Shown piece after piece: positions 16,841-24,638 of a stretch of DNA of 64,000 nt. The stretch is taken from positions 62,001-126,000 of the forward strand of contig DVJE01000002.1 of the NCBI GenBank assembly GCA_018716975.1, given 5' to 3'. Position 1 is the stretch's first letter, and each line of letters begins with the position of its first letter. This DNA is from Candidatus Gallacutalibacter stercoravium. GTDB taxonomy: Bacteria > Bacillota > Clostridia > Oscillospirales > Acutalibacteraceae. The notes beneath the pieces were generated by a model. It was given only the letters and a program-made list of their open reading frames with translations, had not been told where the DNA came from and made no database searches. A program made the translations under genes and the position numbers.

Positions 16841-17050
16841 TTAGCGGGCAAACAGCAACCACATAATACCGGCCAGCACGCCTCCAACCAGCAGCACCAC
16901 AGGCAAGTATACCAGCAAGGCAGCCAATATCATAGCCGGCAAATCGCCCTTTTCCAGCTTTTGATCCTTCAGCTCATCCTGAAACTGACGGCGTTTTTCT
17001 TCCTGCTTTTCTTTTGGAAGCAACCGTTCCAGCTTACCGCGAAACAGCAC
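16841..17050 (-). CDS. Small membrane protein closing the opp operon
   Basis: 69 residues from a GTG at 17050, preceded by AGGAGAGGAGG. It overlaps the end of the oppF-type gene by 17 bases in another frame, so translation is probably coupled. The first 36 residues are charged and helical (many K, E, R, Q), and the rest is one hydrophobic segment of about 30 residues ending in MWLLFAR. I do not recognise a family. Position suggests an accessory part of the peptide importer; that is inference. Confidence 0.65.
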   Translation of the reverse strand: MLFRGKLERLLPKEKQEEKRRQFQDELKDQKLEKGDLPAMILAALLVYLPVVLLVGGVLAGIMWLLFAR

Positions 17051-18581
17051 GGAGGTCCTCCTCTCCTTGGGGAGCGCCGCCTTTCTGATGCAAAGGATGG
17101 TGGCAAGCAGCAAAGTGACCGGGTGCCAGTTCCCGCAGTTCGGGCGCCACATGGCGGCACACATCGGTACAATGCGGGCAACGGGTGTGGAATTTACAGC
17201 CGCTGGGCGGATTGGCCGGGCTGGGGATTTCACCGGTTAGAGCAATGGCCTTTTGCCCGCCGTCGGGATCGGTGGTGGGAATAGCCGACAGCAACGCCTC
17301 GGTATAGGGATGGAAGGGGGCGCGGAATAGATCCTGAGAGCTGGCCAGCTCTACGATGGCGCCCAAATACATTACTCCAATTCGATCGCTGATATATTTG
17401 ACCACGCTCAGATCGTGGGAAATAAACAGATAGGTAAGGCCGGCTTTTTCTTTTAGATCCCGCAGCAGGTTTAACACCTGCGACTGAATGGAAACATCCA
17501 GCGCCGACACGGCCTCATCGCACACCACAAAGCGGGGGCGCAGGGCAAGGGAGCGGGCAATGCCCACACGCTGGCGCTGGCCGCCGGAAAATTGGTGAGG
17601 ATAACGGTGCAGCATATAGGACGCCAGGCCGCATTCTTCCATAACCTGCTCTACTGCTTTTTGCAGCTCAGGGGAGGAGCGCCGGTAGATTCCATGGGCC
17701 CGCAATCCCTCGCCAATGATTTGCCCCACCGTCATGCGGGGGTTGAGGGAGGAGTAGGGATCCTGAAACACCATCTGCAAATCCCGGCGCAGGGCGCGCA
17801 TTTCGCGGTAGCTTAGGCAGGCCAAGTCTACGCCGTCGTCCCGCAGGGCCTCCAACCGATCAAAGTCCGGGTTGCCTGCGGAGGCACGGCGCAGCTCTTC
17901 CACCCGTTTGCTACAGGCGTCCAGCTCTTTTTGCGCTTTTTCCATACCTTCTTTAGAGCGTTTTTCTGTTTGCCGGCGTAGGGCGCGGGCCGCTTCAAAT
18001 TCTTGCAGCAAAGCCTGGCTGGCAGGGCCGATATCGGGCAACGCCAAAAAGCCGCCGGCTACGGCTGCCAAGCGTTCCCGCTCGGTGCGAAAAGCCAAAT
18101 CAGCTTCGTTGGCCTTCTGGCGGGCGGCCAGGGCCTCGGGGGTTTCCTCTTGCCCGTTTTGCGCCCCCCGGCTCTCCAGCTGCGCAGCCTCTTCTTGCAG
18201 CCGTTGGCTCTCTTGTTCCAGCTGCTGCAAATGGGTGCGCCGCGCGTCTAAATGCTTGAGTAGATCTTCCACATAAGAGGGGGCCATCTCTAAACGGGAG
18301 CGGCCGTAATACACCGTGCGCCCCGCTGTTTGGTGGTAAAGCTGCAAAAGGGTACGCCCCAGGGTGGATTTACCGCACCCGCTTTCACCTACCAGGCCAA
18401 AGGTTTCGCCCTCGTAAATTTCCAGGGAAATGCCGTCGTTGGCCCGCACAAAGCGGGCTTCTTTGCGCAACAGCCCTTGCTTTTTTAAAGGGAAATATTG
18501 CTTTAAATCCTGTACCCGCAATAGAACGCGGCGCGGCGCCTCTTGAGCGGGTGTTTGAATGTTGTTACCGCTGTGTTCCAT
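17034..18581 (-). CDS. oppF: Oligopeptide ABC transporter ATPase, OppF type, with a large helical insertion
   Basis: 515 residues against about 320-330 usual. Walker A GESGCGKS lies near residue 65, then instead of going straight to the Q-loop the chain carries an extra segment of about 160 residues (roughly 94-252; bases 17826-18302) rich in E, Q, R, K, A and L, before LSYREMRALRRDLQMVFQDPYSSLN. The signature FSGGQRQRV, Walker B FVVCDEAVSALD, switch His FISHD and C-terminal oligopeptide-transport cysteine region (CKFHTRCPHCTDVC) are intact. ATG after AAAGGAGG; overlaps oppD by 17 bases. The catalytic parts look functional. Confidence 0.92.
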   Translation of the reverse strand: MEHSGNNIQTPAQEAPRRVLLRVQDLKQYFPLKKQGLLRKEARFVRANDGISLEIYEGETFGLVGESGCGKSTLGRTLLQLYHQTAGRTVYYGRSRLEMAPSYVEDLLKHLDARRTHLQQLEQESQRLQEEAAQLESRGAQNGQEETPEALAARQKANEADLAFRTERERLAAVAGGFLALPDIGPASQALLQEFEAARALRRQTEKRSKEGMEKAQKELDACSKRVEELRRASAGNPDFDRLEALRDDGVDLACLSYREMRALRRDLQMVFQDPYSSLNPRMTVGQIIGEGLRAHGIYRRSSPELQKAVEQVMEECGLASYMLHRYPHQFSGGQRQRVGIARSLALRPRFVVCDEAVSALDVSIQSQVLNLLRDLKEKAGLTYLFISHDLSVVKYISDRIGVMYLGAIVELASSQDLFRAPFHPYTEALLSAIPTTDPDGGQKAIALTGEIPSPANPPSGCKFHTRCPHCTDVCRHVAPELRELAPGHFAACHHPLHQKGGAPQGEEDLRAVSR

Positions 18582-19584
18582 GCCGTTCCTCCTTTGCGGG
18601 ATAATGACAGCGCACCCGGTGCCCCGGTTCTATCTCTAGCAGTTGCGGTTCCTCTGCGGTGCAGCGATCGGTCGCATACTTGCACCGGGGAGCAAACTTA
18701 CATCCCTTGGGCAGATTCAACGGGTGGGGCACCGAACCGGGGATCGCCTCCAAGCGAGCTTGGGGCGGCGTATCCAACCGGGGCACCGATTGCAGCAAAC
18801 CTTGGGTATAGGGGTGCTGATAACGTGCCGAACCGAAAATAGCGCTGGCAGGGGCTTGCTCTACCACCTGGCCGCAATACATAACCACAACATCGTCTGC
18901 CATCTGGTTTATTACCCCCAGGTCATGGGTAATAAACAGAATAGAAGCGCCCCGCTCCTTTTTCAGATCGTTCATCAGTTGCAGAATTTGGGCCTGGATA
19001 GTCACGTCCAAGGCGGTAGTGGGCTCGTCTGCAATTAGTAACTTAGGGCCGCAGGCCAATGCCATGGCGATCATAACACGCTGGCGCATACCGCCGGAAA
19101 GCTGGTGGGGATATTGCTTGGCCACCGCTTCGGGGTTGGGGATGCGCACGGCCTTCAGCATTTCTACAGCTTTCTCCCAAGCTTCTTTTTTCTTCATACC
19201 GCGGTGGATGGAAAAGGCCTCGGCTATTTGCCTCCCAGCGGTAAATACCGGATTCAGGCTGGTCATAGGCTCCTGAAAGATAACCGATATTTCGTTGCCG
19301 CGAATGCGATACATTTCTTTCATGGGCAGCTGGGTTAAATCCTGCCCTTCAAACAGGATGCGGCCGCTTTCGATATAACCGTTGCCGTCCAGCAGGCGCA
19401 GCACGCTCATGGCGGAAACGCTCTTGCCGCTGCCGCTTTCGCCCACTACACCTAGGGTTTTACCTGCTTGCACCTGGTAAGACACGCCGTTAACGGCGCG
19501 CACTGTTCCTCGTTTGGTGCGAAAACAGGTGTGCAGATCGTCTATCTCCAGCAAAGGGCCGGAGTTTTTAGCATTCTCACCCAA
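18565..19584 (-). CDS. oppD: Oligopeptide ABC transporter ATPase, OppD type
   Basis: 339 residues, normal length. TTG start a few bases after AAGGTAGGCGG, nine bases from the oppC stop. Walker A GESGSGKS near residue 42, Q-loop FQEPMTSLNP, signature LSGGMRQRV, Walker B LLIADEPTTALD and switch His FITHD, then the oligo_HPY region with CKFAPRCKYATDRC. Pairs with the OppF-type subunit to power peptide import. Unlike OppF it carries no insertion. Confidence 0.95.
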   Translation of the reverse strand: MGENAKNSGPLLEIDDLHTCFRTKRGTVRAVNGVSYQVQAGKTLGVVGESGSGKSVSAMSVLRLLDGNGYIESGRILFEGQDLTQLPMKEMYRIRGNEISVIFQEPMTSLNPVFTAGRQIAEAFSIHRGMKKKEAWEKAVEMLKAVRIPNPEAVAKQYPHQLSGGMRQRVMIAMALACGPKLLIADEPTTALDVTIQAQILQLMNDLKKERGASILFITHDLGVINQMADDVVVMYCGQVVEQAPASAIFGSARYQHPYTQGLLQSVPRLDTPPQARLEAIPGSVPHPLNLPKGCKFAPRCKYATDRCTAEEPQLLEIEPGHRVRCHYPAKEERHGTQR

Positions 19585-19593
19585 GTTTACCGC

Positions 19594-21471
19594 CTACCTT
19601 TCGTTGGATTTGGGATCGATGGCGTCGCGCAGGCCGTCGCCCACCAAATTGATGCTGATGGTAGCCAAGCTCAGCGCCACGGCCGGGAACACCCACCGCC
19701 ACCAGAAGTCGCCGATAACCGTGCTGGACTGGGAACCGGTGAGCATATTGCCCCATGTGGGGCTGGGTTCCACCACGCCAAAGCCCAGGAAGGAAAGTGA
19801 GGATTCCGTCAGCAGGCAGGTGGCAAAATTCAATGTGGTGTTTACAATAACCACCGTAATAACATTGGGCAAAATGTGGCGGAAGATGATGGAGCTTTGC
19901 CGTATACCCATAGCCCGGGCCGCCGTTACAAACTCCTTTTCACGCTCTGCCAGGATTTGCGCGCGCACCAGGCGGGCTAGGCCGGGCCAGCTGAGCACGC
20001 CCAATATTACCATAATTAGGCTAATGCGCCCTAATTCAGATACCTGGTTGCCCACAATGGCCGACAGTATCATGGCAAGGGGCAAAAAGGGAATAGACAT
20101 AACAATTTCGGTAAAGCGCATCAGCAGGTTGTCAATCCAACCGCCGTAGTAACCGGCAATGCCGCCGATGATAACGCCCAATATAGTAGAGATAATTACC
20201 GAAATGGCGCCGATGGTCATGGTTAAGCGTCCGCCTGAAATCAGGCGCAGAAATACATCGCGGCCGTAGCCATCGGTACCCATGAGATAGCCTTTCAATC
20301 CCCAGCTATTCACAGTGCCGTCTTGCATGACGGCATAGTTTTGATAATAGCCGGAATGAACCGCCTGCACGCCGCTCAGTTGGGGAGCGTTGGCTTGACC
20401 GAACTGGTTGCCGCCCCAAGAGAAAACTTGGCCGTCTTGGGTAAGCACGGTAAAATGAAGCCGTCCGGCGCTGACGCTTTTGGCATTGCCCTGCACTTGC
20501 TGGGGAATTTGCGTTACGCCGTCGTCAGTGCTGCCCCACACCACCACTTGGCCGTCGCTCGTAATGGCGGCGGCTGCTTTATCGGTAACAGCCAGGTCAA
20601 CAACCTGGCCTTGAATTTCCTCCGGTATCGAGGAAAAGGGAGTTTCGTTGGTGCTAAGCGATACAACGCGGCCGTCTTTGGTTAGGCCCAGAGCGGTGGA
20701 GATATTGGAAACGACTTTATCCAAAGTCCCTTGATACTCGCCCACAGAAACGCTAACCACATTTTCGTTACCCCAAGTGTACAGCTCACCGTCTTCGGTA
20801 AGCACCATAGAAATCTGATGGCCGGCTTCTATTTGCTTAATGTTGGTCAGATCCTGCACCTCAAAGGGGATTTTATCCAGCTGTTGCCGGTTATAACCCC
20901 AGGTGAACACTTCACCTTTATCGTTGAGCGCCAAAAAGTGGCTTAACCCGGCAGAAACCTGTACCACGTGGCCCATGTTTTGGGGAACATCCCGTTGCTG
21001 TTCATCCAGCTGCCCCCATACGTAAACCTGGCCGTCTTGCCCAACGCCGATGCCGAATACCGATCCGGCGTCCATATCAACAACGTTGCCCTGCAGCTGC
21101 CCGGGCATATCCATAATGGAAAAGCCCGGCGGAACGTTTTGCTGGGTTACGTCTTGATAGGTTACATCCAACGGGTAAAAAATAGGCAGAATAAAGCAGC
21201 ATAAAAACAACACCACAAACACAATAAGGCCGGCCATAGCCACCTTATTGCCCACGAAGTTGCGCACAATGGTGCGAAAAGGACTTTGCACCGCTTCTTC
21301 CTGCAAAGGATCCCCGCCGCCGGCACCAAACAGCCTGCCAAAAAGTCCGGGCCCCATCCGCTTGCGCCGACGGTTCCTCTCTTGGCGCTGTTGCCGTTTT
21401 TGCTGTTTTTCAGCGCCCGCACCGTTGCCAGATGCGTCTGGCTGGGCGTTCGCGTTATGTTTTTGATTCAT
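19594..21471 (-). CDS. oppC: Oligopeptide ABC permease, OppC type, with an inserted RCC1-like beta-propeller
   Basis: 625 residues against about 300-350 usual. A basic cytoplasmic N-terminus of about 75 residues leads to the first membrane helix (about 79-99) and the short QNVPPGFS element seen in ordinary OppC. Then comes an extra region of about 270 residues (125-395; bases 20287-21099) with seven repeats of the RCC1 pattern, for example DGQVYVWG, KGEVFTWG, DGELYTWG, DGQVVVWG and DGQVFSWG. The chain then rejoins OppC at YLMGTDGYGRDVFLRL and finishes with the remaining membrane helices and the EAA loop. By OppC topology the propeller should be outside the cell. Confidence 0.93.
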   Translation of the reverse strand: MNQKHNANAQPDASGNGAGAEKQQKRQQRQERNRRRKRMGPGLFGRLFGAGGGDPLQEEAVQSPFRTIVRNFVGNKVAMAGLIVFVVLFLCCFILPIFYPLDVTYQDVTQQNVPPGFSIMDMPGQLQGNVVDMDAGSVFGIGVGQDGQVYVWGQLDEQQRDVPQNMGHVVQVSAGLSHFLALNDKGEVFTWGYNRQQLDKIPFEVQDLTNIKQIEAGHQISMVLTEDGELYTWGNENVVSVSVGEYQGTLDKVVSNISTALGLTKDGRVVSLSTNETPFSSIPEEIQGQVVDLAVTDKAAAAITSDGQVVVWGSTDDGVTQIPQQVQGNAKSVSAGRLHFTVLTQDGQVFSWGGNQFGQANAPQLSGVQAVHSGYYQNYAVMQDGTVNSWGLKGYLMGTDGYGRDVFLRLISGGRLTMTIGAISVIISTILGVIIGGIAGYYGGWIDNLLMRFTEIVMSIPFLPLAMILSAIVGNQVSELGRISLIMVILGVLSWPGLARLVRAQILAEREKEFVTAARAMGIRQSSIIFRHILPNVITVVIVNTTLNFATCLLTESSLSFLGFGVVEPSPTWGNMLTGSQSSTVIGDFWWRWVFPAVALSLATISINLVGDGLRDAIDPKSNER

Positions 21472-21545: not shown

Positions 21546-22529
21546 TTATTCCAGCTTGACCCTGGGGTCCACCAGGCAGTAGCCCAAGTCCATAATCAAG
21601 TTGCCGATTAGCGTGAGCACCACGTAAAACATTTGCATGGCCAGCACTACGGCGAAATCCTGTTGGTTCAGCGCGTCAAAAAGAACCTTGCCGATACCGT
21701 TCCACATAAAGATGGTTTCTATAACCACGGAACCGCCAAATACCCCCACAAACCAGCTGGTGACGATGGTAACAATGGGGATTAAGGCGTTGCGGAAGGC
21801 GTGAGAGTAAATAACTACTTTTTCGCGCAGGCCCTTTGCGCGGGCAGTGCGAATATAATCCATACGCAGCACGTCAATCATAGCGGCGCGCACATATCGG
21901 GTGATGCCGCCAAGGGAGCTCACCGTCATAACCAGCAAGGGCAGCGCCATGTGGTACATAGTGTCGCCAAACATTTGCCAGGCGTCGCCTTGAAGCCCTG
22001 GGGTGTTTACCCCGCTGATGGGAAAGATAGGCCAGTGCACAGAAAATAAAAAGATGAAAACCAGGGCGATAATAAAGCCCGGCAGGCTGTAACCGATTAC
22101 GGTGCCAACCTGAACCACGTTGTCGAATATGCTGTTCTTTTTTACCGCCGTTACAATGCCCAACGGTATTGTAATGGCAAAAACAAGCACAAGCGAGGCC
22201 AAATTAAGCAGCAAGGTGTTGCGCATGGGAGCGCCCACCATATCCACTACCGGCATGCGGTAGGTGGCAGAGTAACCAAAGTTACCGGTTACCATGTTGC
22301 CAAACCACTTAAAGTATTGCACAATCACGGGATCGTCCAGCCCCAAACGCTCACGGGCCGCCTGATAAAGCATATCGTAGCGCTGGGGGTCGCTGGTAGA
22401 AAGCGATGTGTCCACCATCATGCGGGCGGGATCACCCGGCACCATCTTGTAAATGCCGAACATTACCACCGATACAATGACGAATACAAAGGCTACGTAC
22501 AGCAATCGCTTTAGGATGTATTTAATCAT
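21546..22529 (-). CDS. oppB: Oligopeptide ABC permease, OppB type
   Basis: 327 residues, normal length, no insertion. N-terminal membrane helix with YILKRLLYVAFVFVIVSVVMFG, the periplasm-side GDPARMMVD motif typical of OppB/DppB, then five further helices with the EAA loop RTARAKGLREKVVIYSHAFRNALIP. ATG about a dozen bases after GAGGAGGG. Forms the channel with the OppC-type subunit. Confidence 0.95.
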   Translation of the reverse strand: MIKYILKRLLYVAFVFVIVSVVMFGIYKMVPGDPARMMVDTSLSTSDPQRYDMLYQAARERLGLDDPVIVQYFKWFGNMVTGNFGYSATYRMPVVDMVGAPMRNTLLLNLASLVLVFAITIPLGIVTAVKKNSIFDNVVQVGTVIGYSLPGFIIALVFIFLFSVHWPIFPISGVNTPGLQGDAWQMFGDTMYHMALPLLVMTVSSLGGITRYVRAAMIDVLRMDYIRTARAKGLREKVVIYSHAFRNALIPIVTIVTSWFVGVFGGSVVIETIFMWNGIGKVLFDALNQQDFAVVLAMQMFYVVLTLIGNLIMDLGYCLVDPRVKLE

Positions 22530-22763: not shown

Positions 22764-24638
22764 TTAGCCCTCCAGGTTGGCGCGCAAAATAGCGTACTCC
22801 CAAGACCATAAGCCGTCGGGCGTATAATTTTGCAGCCGGGTGGTGAAAAAGTCGTGATAGTTATCCGAATACAGCGGGATATCGGGCAGAAGCTCGTTCC
22901 AACGTTTTTGGAACTCTAACCACTTGGCCGACCACGCTTCTTCGTCGCCGGGCTCAGTGGCGCGCAGCTCCTGGCTCAGTTTTTCTAACTCTTCGTCAAC
23001 GATAAAGTTTTGGTTGTAAATGCCCATATAGGCCGGATCAGAGGAGTAATAATACCAAATGGCGTTGACTGTGGCAAAGCCGGCGGCCAGGTTAAACATA
23101 TGGTAGGTGGCCTCTTCGCCGTTGCGCAGCATATAGTTTTGCAGGTTGCCGAACTCCATGGTAGTGGGTTCCAGCTTCATGCCAACCTTTTCCATCTCAG
23201 AGGGCAGCATGGTGTTAAGCAGATCGGAAACCGGGTTGTTGGGGGTGTTGGCCCATTTGATGGTCAAAGGCATCAATTCGCCGTCTACCTCTTTGTAGCG
23301 CAGGGTATCTACCCCTTCTACAAAGTCGCCGCCGCTTTCATTTTTGGTCCAACCGTCGGCGATCAACAACTCTTTTGCCTTTTCGGGGTTATAGGTGTAA
23401 GGATTCAATTCGCTTTCCAAAGCCTCGCGGTTTTCGCGATACTCCCACTGAGAAAGGCCGTAGTAGCCGTTTACAACCCTGGCGTAACCGCCGGAGTACT
23501 GAGAAGCAAACTCATTGCGATCCAGCAAATAGGCAATCGCTTGGCGCACTGCCGGGAACTGGGTGGGGCCAAAGTCGCAGGCAAAGGTGATCTTACCATA
23601 GCCGGCGCGCATGTAATCAGCATAAGAAGCCTTGCCCTCGTCTACTAAGTCAAGGCCGGCGTTAATGGCGGTGCCGCCGGAAACGCCGCTAATTAAATCT
23701 ACAGAACCTGCCGCCAACTCGTCCATCTGAGTGGCATCGGTAACCGATTTCAAAATCAGCGTTTGAATCGAAGGCTTAGCCCCGTCGTAAGCGCCCAAGT
23801 AGTTGGGGTTTACAGTAAGCACCGCTTGCTTGGTGCCGGGGTCAAAGCTTTCAAATTGGTAAGGACCAGAGGTCTTCTTGGGGTTGTAACGATAACCGGT
23901 TTCGGTATTGGTGATGGGATCACGGATGAGATCCACACTGAAGTTATCGGTGAAATAAGCACCCTCGCCGTCATCCAAAATATCAACGCCCGGCGCCAGC
24001 ACATCCATAGGATAGGGGGCCACTGCGGTCAGCGCCAGCTCGTAATAGTTGGGCAAAGATTCGGCGTCCAGGGTAACCGAGAATTGATAATCGCCCAGCA
24101 GGCGCACGCCGGTAAACACTTTGCTTTCGCCGCTGTTAAACGCATCAAAGCCAACAAAGTCGGCGCCAACGGTATTATTGGCGTCCAGTTCGCCAAAGGC
24201 GGGGCTGGAACCCAGCAACACGGCAAAGACATAATCTTTGGCGGTAATGGGGGAGCCGTCGTTGTAGGTCAAGTTTTCATTCAGGGTATAGGTGTAGGTT
24301 TTAGAACCGTCCTCGTTTTCGGTGATTTCGGCTTTGCCGTCTTTCACCACCACGGGATCCACAGCGTAAGAACCATCTTGTGTAAAGGTAGCTGTCGCAT
24401 AGCCGTACAGCAGGTTCTTAACAGACTTATTCGGAGTGCCGTTGGTCCAGCCGTCCATAAAATCAGCGTTCAAGTCGGTGATGGAACCAACAATCAGCTG
24501 GCCGCTGGCTTGGGATTCCCCTTCTGCCGCAGTGGACTCGCCTGAGCCCCCGGTGCTGGAGGGACTGCCCGAAGAGCTGCACGCCGCCATAGAAAACGCC
24601 ATGGCGCCGGCCAACAAAAGGGCCAATAATTTTTTCAT
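22764..24638 (-). CDS. oppA: Oligopeptide-binding lipoprotein, OppA type (solute-binding family 5)
   Basis: 624 residues from the ATG at 24638, which follows AAAGGAT; the open frame extends further upstream but without a site. Signal peptide MKKLLALLLAGAMAFSMAAC with the lipid-modified Cys at residue 20, a Ser/Gly-rich linker, then the family 5 fold with YNDGSPITAKDYVFAV and RQAIAYLLDRNEFASQ. Anchored outside the cell, it delivers peptides to OppBC. It is longer than typical OppA (about 540). First gene of the operon. Confidence 0.95.
   Translation of the reverse strand: MKKLLALLLAGAMAFSMAACSSSGSPSSTGGSGESTAAEGESQASGQLIVGSITDLNADFMDGWTNGTPNKSVKNLLYGYATATFTQDGSYAVDPVVVKDGKAEITENEDGSKTYTYTLNENLTYNDGSPITAKDYVFAVLLGSSPAFGELDANNTVGADFVGFDAFNSGESKVFTGVRLLGDYQFSVTLDAESLPNYYELALTAVAPYPMDVLAPGVDILDDGEGAYFTDNFSVDLIRDPITNTETGYRYNPKKTSGPYQFESFDPGTKQAVLTVNPNYLGAYDGAKPSIQTLILKSVTDATQMDELAAGSVDLISGVSGGTAINAGLDLVDEGKASYADYMRAGYGKITFACDFGPTQFPAVRQAIAYLLDRNEFASQYSGGYARVVNGYYGLSQWEYRENREALESELNPYTYNPEKAKELLIADGWTKNESGGDFVEGVDTLRYKEVDGELMPLTIKWANTPNNPVSDLLNTMLPSEMEKVGMKLEPTTMEFGNLQNYMLRNGEEATYHMFNLAAGFATVNAIWYYYSSDPAYMGIYNQNFIVDEELEKLSQELRATEPGDEEAWSAKWLEFQKRWNELLPDIPLYSDNYHDFFTTRLQNYTPDGLWSWEYAILRANLEG

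Follow-up and report, generated by a model that had tools for sequence, protein, structure and literature searches.

The OppC permease of an oligopeptide-type importer in the window, the 64,000-nucleotide stretch of DNA analysed here, carries a closed seven-bladed propeller of the RCC1/BLIP-II type between its first and second transmembrane helices (TM1 and TM2). The propeller was inserted once, long ago, and has since been stably kept across the Clostridia together with the cognate OppA, OppB, OppD and OppF. What is new is the combination of OppC and propeller, along with the fact that it arose once, how widely it is spread and how it is linked to the binding protein OppA. The construction is stable and testable, with docking of OppA as a likely mechanism.

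The propeller within OppC

The gene lies on the minus strand, with the coordinates and the length that the original prediction gave for a 625-residue OppC-type reading frame. The protein is divided as follows:

19594..21471, minus strand: oppC, OppC permease with an RCC1/BLIP-II-type propeller insert, 625 aa
21127..21285, minus strand: OppC_N, TM1 region, residues 63-115 (Pfam PF12911, E 2e-13)
20299..21123, minus strand: inserted seven-bladed propeller, residues ~117-391 (Pfam, AlphaFold model, structure matches)
21088..21117, minus strand: N-terminal piece IMDMPGQLQG, residues 119-128, putative closure (velcro) of blade 7, by motif register with the blade ends
20971..21084, minus strand: blade 1, residues 130-167 (blades 1 to 7 from DSSP of the model)
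20854..20967, minus strand: blade 2, residues 169-206
20728..20841, minus strand: blade 3, residues 211-248
20611..20724, minus strand: blade 4, residues 250-287, the most degenerate, without WG
20491..20604, minus strand: blade 5, residues 290-327
20374..20484, minus strand: blade 6, residues 330-366
20299..20370, minus strand: blade 7, residues 368-391
20284..20298, minus strand: exit linker LKGYL, residues 392-396, directly before MGTD (conservation in the fused set)
19609..20178, minus strand: BPD_transp_1 transmembrane domain (Pfam), with the EAA-type coupling motif EREKEFVTAARAMGI read from the sequence

The BPD_transp_1 domain covers residues 432-621 of the 625 (Pfam, E 2e-36), and PF12911 and PF00528 score 50.2 and 125.7 bits against gathering cut-offs of 23.9 and 26.4, respectively. 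In the insert, RCC1_2 is matched in five stretches (E 3e-40), which rules out chance repeats as the origin of the pattern, and both RCC1 repeat profiles exceed their gathering scores (PF13540, 135.3 bits, cut-off 22; PF00415, 30.2 bits, cut-off 21.7). The NCBIfam equivalog Opp4C (NF045476) gives 328.2 bits, which is under its curated cut-off of 350, yet is the top score among all subfamilies. When searched with phmmer against solved structures, the C-terminal part retrieves DppC and OppC, and the insert BLIP-II, UVR8, HERC2 and RCC1. Judged by these profile and sequence matches, the fusion protein is a member of two families at once, Opp and the RCC1/BLIP-II propellers.

In the AlphaFold model, the insert folds into 21 strands, three in each of seven blades, with a pLDDT of mostly 80-93. 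Among solved structures, BLIP-II comes nearest to it (Foldseek E 1.6e-20; by VIA-align, a Z of 31.3 and an rmsd of 2.0 A over 257-259 residues), an alignment long and close enough to indicate that the ring is closed, while WD40 and other propellers stay at a Z of about 15, far under that of BLIP-II. The model thus confirms a closed seven-bladed ring of the RCC1/BLIP-II type. Of the seven DGxVxxWG repeats predicted originally all seven are present, although the second has KG for DG and the fourth, correctly singled out as the most diverged (DGRVVSLS), has lost its WG. The predicted span, 20287-21099, corresponds to residues 125-395 and is to be replaced by the one listed above, but the anatomy, a complete propeller in an external loop of OppC, was right.

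The point of insertion can be read from a non-fused OppC of close score (L153, 305 aa), which has YGVDQMDYTHVNLAPSAQHWLGTDELGRD where the window protein has YPLDVTYQDVTQQNVPPGFS...WGLKGYLMGTDGYGRD, so that the ring takes the place of a few residues between a conserved proline and the GTD element. At the entry, MPGQLQG shares its register with the blade-end motif IPxxxQG, and at the exit, the WG of blade 7 leads directly to LKGYLMGTD. From these motifs and the order of the strands, both ends of the insert would belong to blade 7, with MDMPGQLQG completing that blade as a velcro closure, and the ring would therefore hang on a single blade. Pro123 and Gly394 are invariant across the fused proteins, and Lys393 and Tyr395 are ~73% conserved. 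In the E. coli structure, where DppA caps DppB and DppC, the corresponding region of DppC lies in the periplasm (PMC12136057), and the loop that bears the propeller is by homology expected to be external. The membrane part was modelled with low pLDDT, from an alignment of only nine sequences, and the orientation of the propeller is consequently not readable from it.

Operon, distribution and origin

OppC is encoded alongside a solute-binding protein, a second permease and two oligo_HPY ATPases:

22764..24638, minus strand: oppA, lipoprotein solute-binding protein of the SBP_bac_5 family, start set at MKKLLALLLAGAMAFSMAAC
21546..22529, minus strand: oppB permease, scoop region (PGDP...) retained
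18565..19584, minus strand: oppD ATPase
17034..18581, minus strand: oppF ATPase, with a helical insert of ~150 residues
25198..26982, plus strand: M3-family oligoendopeptidase (PepF-like), divergent neighbour, assigned from its HEAGH motif and from homology rather than from Pfam

Wherever the contig allows, the fused loci have the gene order oppA-oppB-oppC-oppD-oppF, and oppA is directly upstream of oppB-oppC in every locus with a long enough contig. The M3 oligoendopeptidase adjoins several other propeller operons too, and its presence fits with oligopeptide uptake; homology and this PepF-like neighbour together suggest that the importer transports oligopeptides. In two of the propeller operons (L007 and L135) a tandem pair of oppA genes lies upstream of oppB, which would allow two binding proteins per permease. 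In nearly all propeller operons (those of the window, L001, L002, L007 and L113-L149), OppF is also enlarged by ~150-200 residues, which are inserted between Walker A and the Q-loop and modelled as long helices with a pLDDT of about 75-94; this insert is absent in the L003-L006/L008 subclade and in the OppF that adjoins non-fused OppC.

The identical fusion at the identical site was found in 49 loci (the window and 48 more) from independent Clostridia assemblies, including isolate and single-contig genomes. Eight named genomes match the protein over its full length, with identities of 51-66%, and the named carriers are Merdivicinus, Intestinimonas, Avoscillospira, Acetatifactor, an Oscillospiraceae bacterium and Falcatimonas. 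In sample scans, the fusion was present in 23 of 295 genomes of the order, 17 of 391 of the class and 14 of 398 of the phylum (~1,080 genome scans overall, from samples with a slight overlap, all of which contain the genome of the window). A chimeric assembly at the borders of the insert, which the original prediction had named as a finding that would overturn it, was looked for, and the junctions proved to be the same in all 49 loci; a mis-joined gene as the source of the fusion is thereby excluded, its residual probability being negligible.

In a tree of the membrane part only, all 49 fused proteins form one clade (100/99) on a long stem, apart from 38 others. The survey of carriers that had been proposed at the outset thus returns many gut Clostridia and one clade, and among the ~1,080 genome scans, which should have revealed one, neither a propeller-less member of this clade nor a reversion was seen. 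In close pairs, dN/dS is 0.03-0.17 for the propeller and 0.00-0.14 for the membrane part: the propeller is under purifying selection.

The genome of the window has no clear OppC_N protein besides this OppC, and a PF13540 profile search matched five blades of its propeller. The only other RCC1-like protein of that genome (L082:1099-2958, G000 contig C1) is secreted, 619 aa long, and has a type I dockerin; it may be a surface partner of the cellulosome type. In a class relative (G341, contig C4, 18119-106258, L173-L178), a single reading frame runs for 29,380 codons without a break; it has a signal-peptide-like start, ~95 RCC1 motifs and a dockerin-like end, and is predicted to encode a giant surface protein.

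The same loop of OppC is occupied by other material elsewhere. In sister lineages of the same order (L029-L043, e.g. L030:5204-6760 and L041:5291-7471), unrelated inserts of ~190 to 420 residues without a convincing Pfam or PDB match are found between TM1 and TM2; for the 190-residue insert of the L029-L038 group, the best hit to a solved structure has an E of 0.015 and is not convincing. Another lineage (L044:4436-5806 and L045:1370-2806) has a different insert of ~130-155 residues, in which no known domain was found in PDB or Pfam, where a parvulin-like reading made by eye likewise received no support. Such large and unrelated inserts in sister transporters suggest that the TM1-TM2 loop is a hot spot, a general site for accessory domains.

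Covariation with OppA and the role of the propeller

Branch lengths of each part of the operon were fitted on one topology, after which partial correlations were taken. The propeller correlates with OppA (partial r 0.54, 95% bootstrap 0.35-0.69), against -0.06 with the transmembrane domain (TMD) of the same chain. The value is 0.61 (0.42-0.72) with rate-matched fast sites, for which columns were picked so that all parts have about equal divergence, and 0.58 without the eight longest branches; with the external part of OppB as an added control, it is 0.56 for OppA versus 0.12 for this part of OppB. The positive controls, the OppA-OppB, OppB-OppC and OppD-OppF contacts, were recovered in all tests. 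The first topology, dominated by OppD and OppF, was partly mis-specified, as it clashes with OppA, OppB and OppC for L122 and L139, hinting at an exchange of ATPase genes between operons. Reruns gave 0.49 on the membrane-subunit topology and 0.44 on a topology from all external and membrane parts. When ten awkward taxa were dropped, the correlation with OppA was 0.46 and that with the TMD rose to 0.44; over all runs, the link of the propeller to its own membrane part is little or inconsistent. These rates favour OppA as the partner of the propeller, in a comparison to which direct contact and shared extracellular selection would contribute alike.

I give about an even chance to the propeller being a module for docking and retention of OppA that works in the manner of MalF P2, though unrelated to it in fold and position. 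It would be a platform that keeps the lipoprotein OppA close to the translocation path from one transport cycle to the next, and might also report whether OppA is loaded. With the chain entering and leaving via blade 7 and an exit linker of near-zero length, the face with the AG..H and WG..N loops would be expected to look towards the mouth of the transporter, where OppA sits. BLIP-II binds its targets through this same face. Against docking speaks the unremarkable conservation of the loops on the presumed binding face (mean JS 0.52 in the AB and 0.41 in the CD loops, versus 0.53 in the opposite BC turns), as does the covariation with the TMD in the reduced taxon set. OppA and the propeller, both extracellular and fast-evolving, could also follow a shared change of substrate or habitat. 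Furthermore, these OppBs have kept their PGDP/scoop region, so that ordinary docking should work without a propeller.

Alternatively, and this I hold as a tentative possibility, the propeller is an independent receptor that brings a source of peptides to the pump by binding something other than OppA, such as a polymer of the cell wall, a host protein, large peptides, or a peptidase that is either extracellular or attached to the wall. RCC1/BLIP-II propellers are known protein binders, with affinities of BLIP-II for beta-lactamase in the picomolar to femtomolar range (PMC6121496), and free-standing secreted propellers occur in the same genomes and class (the dockerin protein L082, the lipoprotein L093 and giant surface proteins). 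However, in the fused loci compared, no gene besides those of the transporter is a constant neighbour of the operon, and contact with OppA explains the covariation better, as a shared ligand other than OppA would need to change in step with it. A combined form, a two-receptor importer, seems somewhat unlikely: OppA would take free peptides and the propeller would hold on to an extracellular protein, polymer or peptidase, with substrate release and uptake occurring in one complex.

The propeller as a lid or gate above the translocation mouth, restricting the size or kind of peptides from OppA, is improbable. One of its ends is fixed at TM1 and the other at the GTD motif ahead of TM2, the exit linker being conserved and nearly absent, as a gate would have it; but in type I importers the mouth is already closed by OppA together with the scoop of OppB (PMC12136057), and the full taxon sets show no significant rate link of the propeller to OppB or to the membrane part of OppC, a link to the latter appearing in the reduced set. 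Still less probable is a passive spacer or shield, extra bulk outside the membrane that makes no specific contact. The loop clearly tolerates bulk, given the unrelated inserts of 190-420 residues in other OppC lineages of the order, but retention of a closed ring throughout the clade under purifying selection, with no losses seen, and its specific covariation with OppA do not suit a mere spacer. Among the functions offered originally, holding OppA is the one that gained, as the rate of the propeller tracks OppA beyond the rest of the operon, while no positive evidence emerged for gating or selecting cargo or for binding of cell wall or a host ligand.

How lipoprotein binding proteins are retained near their permease in Gram-positive cells is poorly understood, and a conserved, soluble and separately expressible propeller on the permease itself makes this question directly testable. 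Docking would mean that a kind of ring-shaped binder familiar chiefly from an enzyme inhibitor and from eukaryotic regulators serves common gut bacteria as a permanent component of a nutrient pump.

Comparison with known systems

A search of open-access papers found none that joins OppC and RCC1, consistent with the original statement that no importer of this build has been characterised. Such architectures are probably listed in domain databases, which would make the fusion undescribed in function rather than unseen.

With the type I importers OppABCDF and DppABCDF (E. coli DppC, 8z1v; M. tuberculosis OppC Rv1282c, 8j5q), the window system shares the operon of A, B, C, D and F, OppC_N, BPD_transp_1, the GTD..GRD element and the EAA coupling motif, as well as OppD and OppF with oligo_HPY and the scoop region of OppB. 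It differs from them by the 275-residue propeller between TM1 and TM2 of OppC and, in most members, by the helical insert of OppF.

MalF P2, which comprises residues 91-271 of MalF, is the nearest analogue in working mode, as proposed here. It too is a large extracytoplasmic domain on one subunit of a type I permease, found in a different loop and with a different fold, without homology to the propeller. According to Daus et al. 2009 (cited in PMC3150292), P2 is in contact with the binding protein as the transport cycle proceeds.

BLIP-II (1jtd, 3qhy, 3qi0), with its fold of seven blades of three strands each (PMC6121496), is 28% identical to the OppC propeller and has the same AG..H and WG..N..GQ motifs. 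It is a free, secreted inhibitor that binds class A beta-lactamases, unlike the OppC propeller, which by its Pfam architecture lies within a membrane protein, to which it would be attached through blade 7. With RCC1, the exchange factor of the eukaryotic protein Ran, only the fold is shared. The secreted RCC1-repeat surface proteins of Clostridia, such as L093 and L082, have the same type of propeller, also extracellular, though not in transporters, and these proteins are the likely pool from which the inserted domain was drawn.
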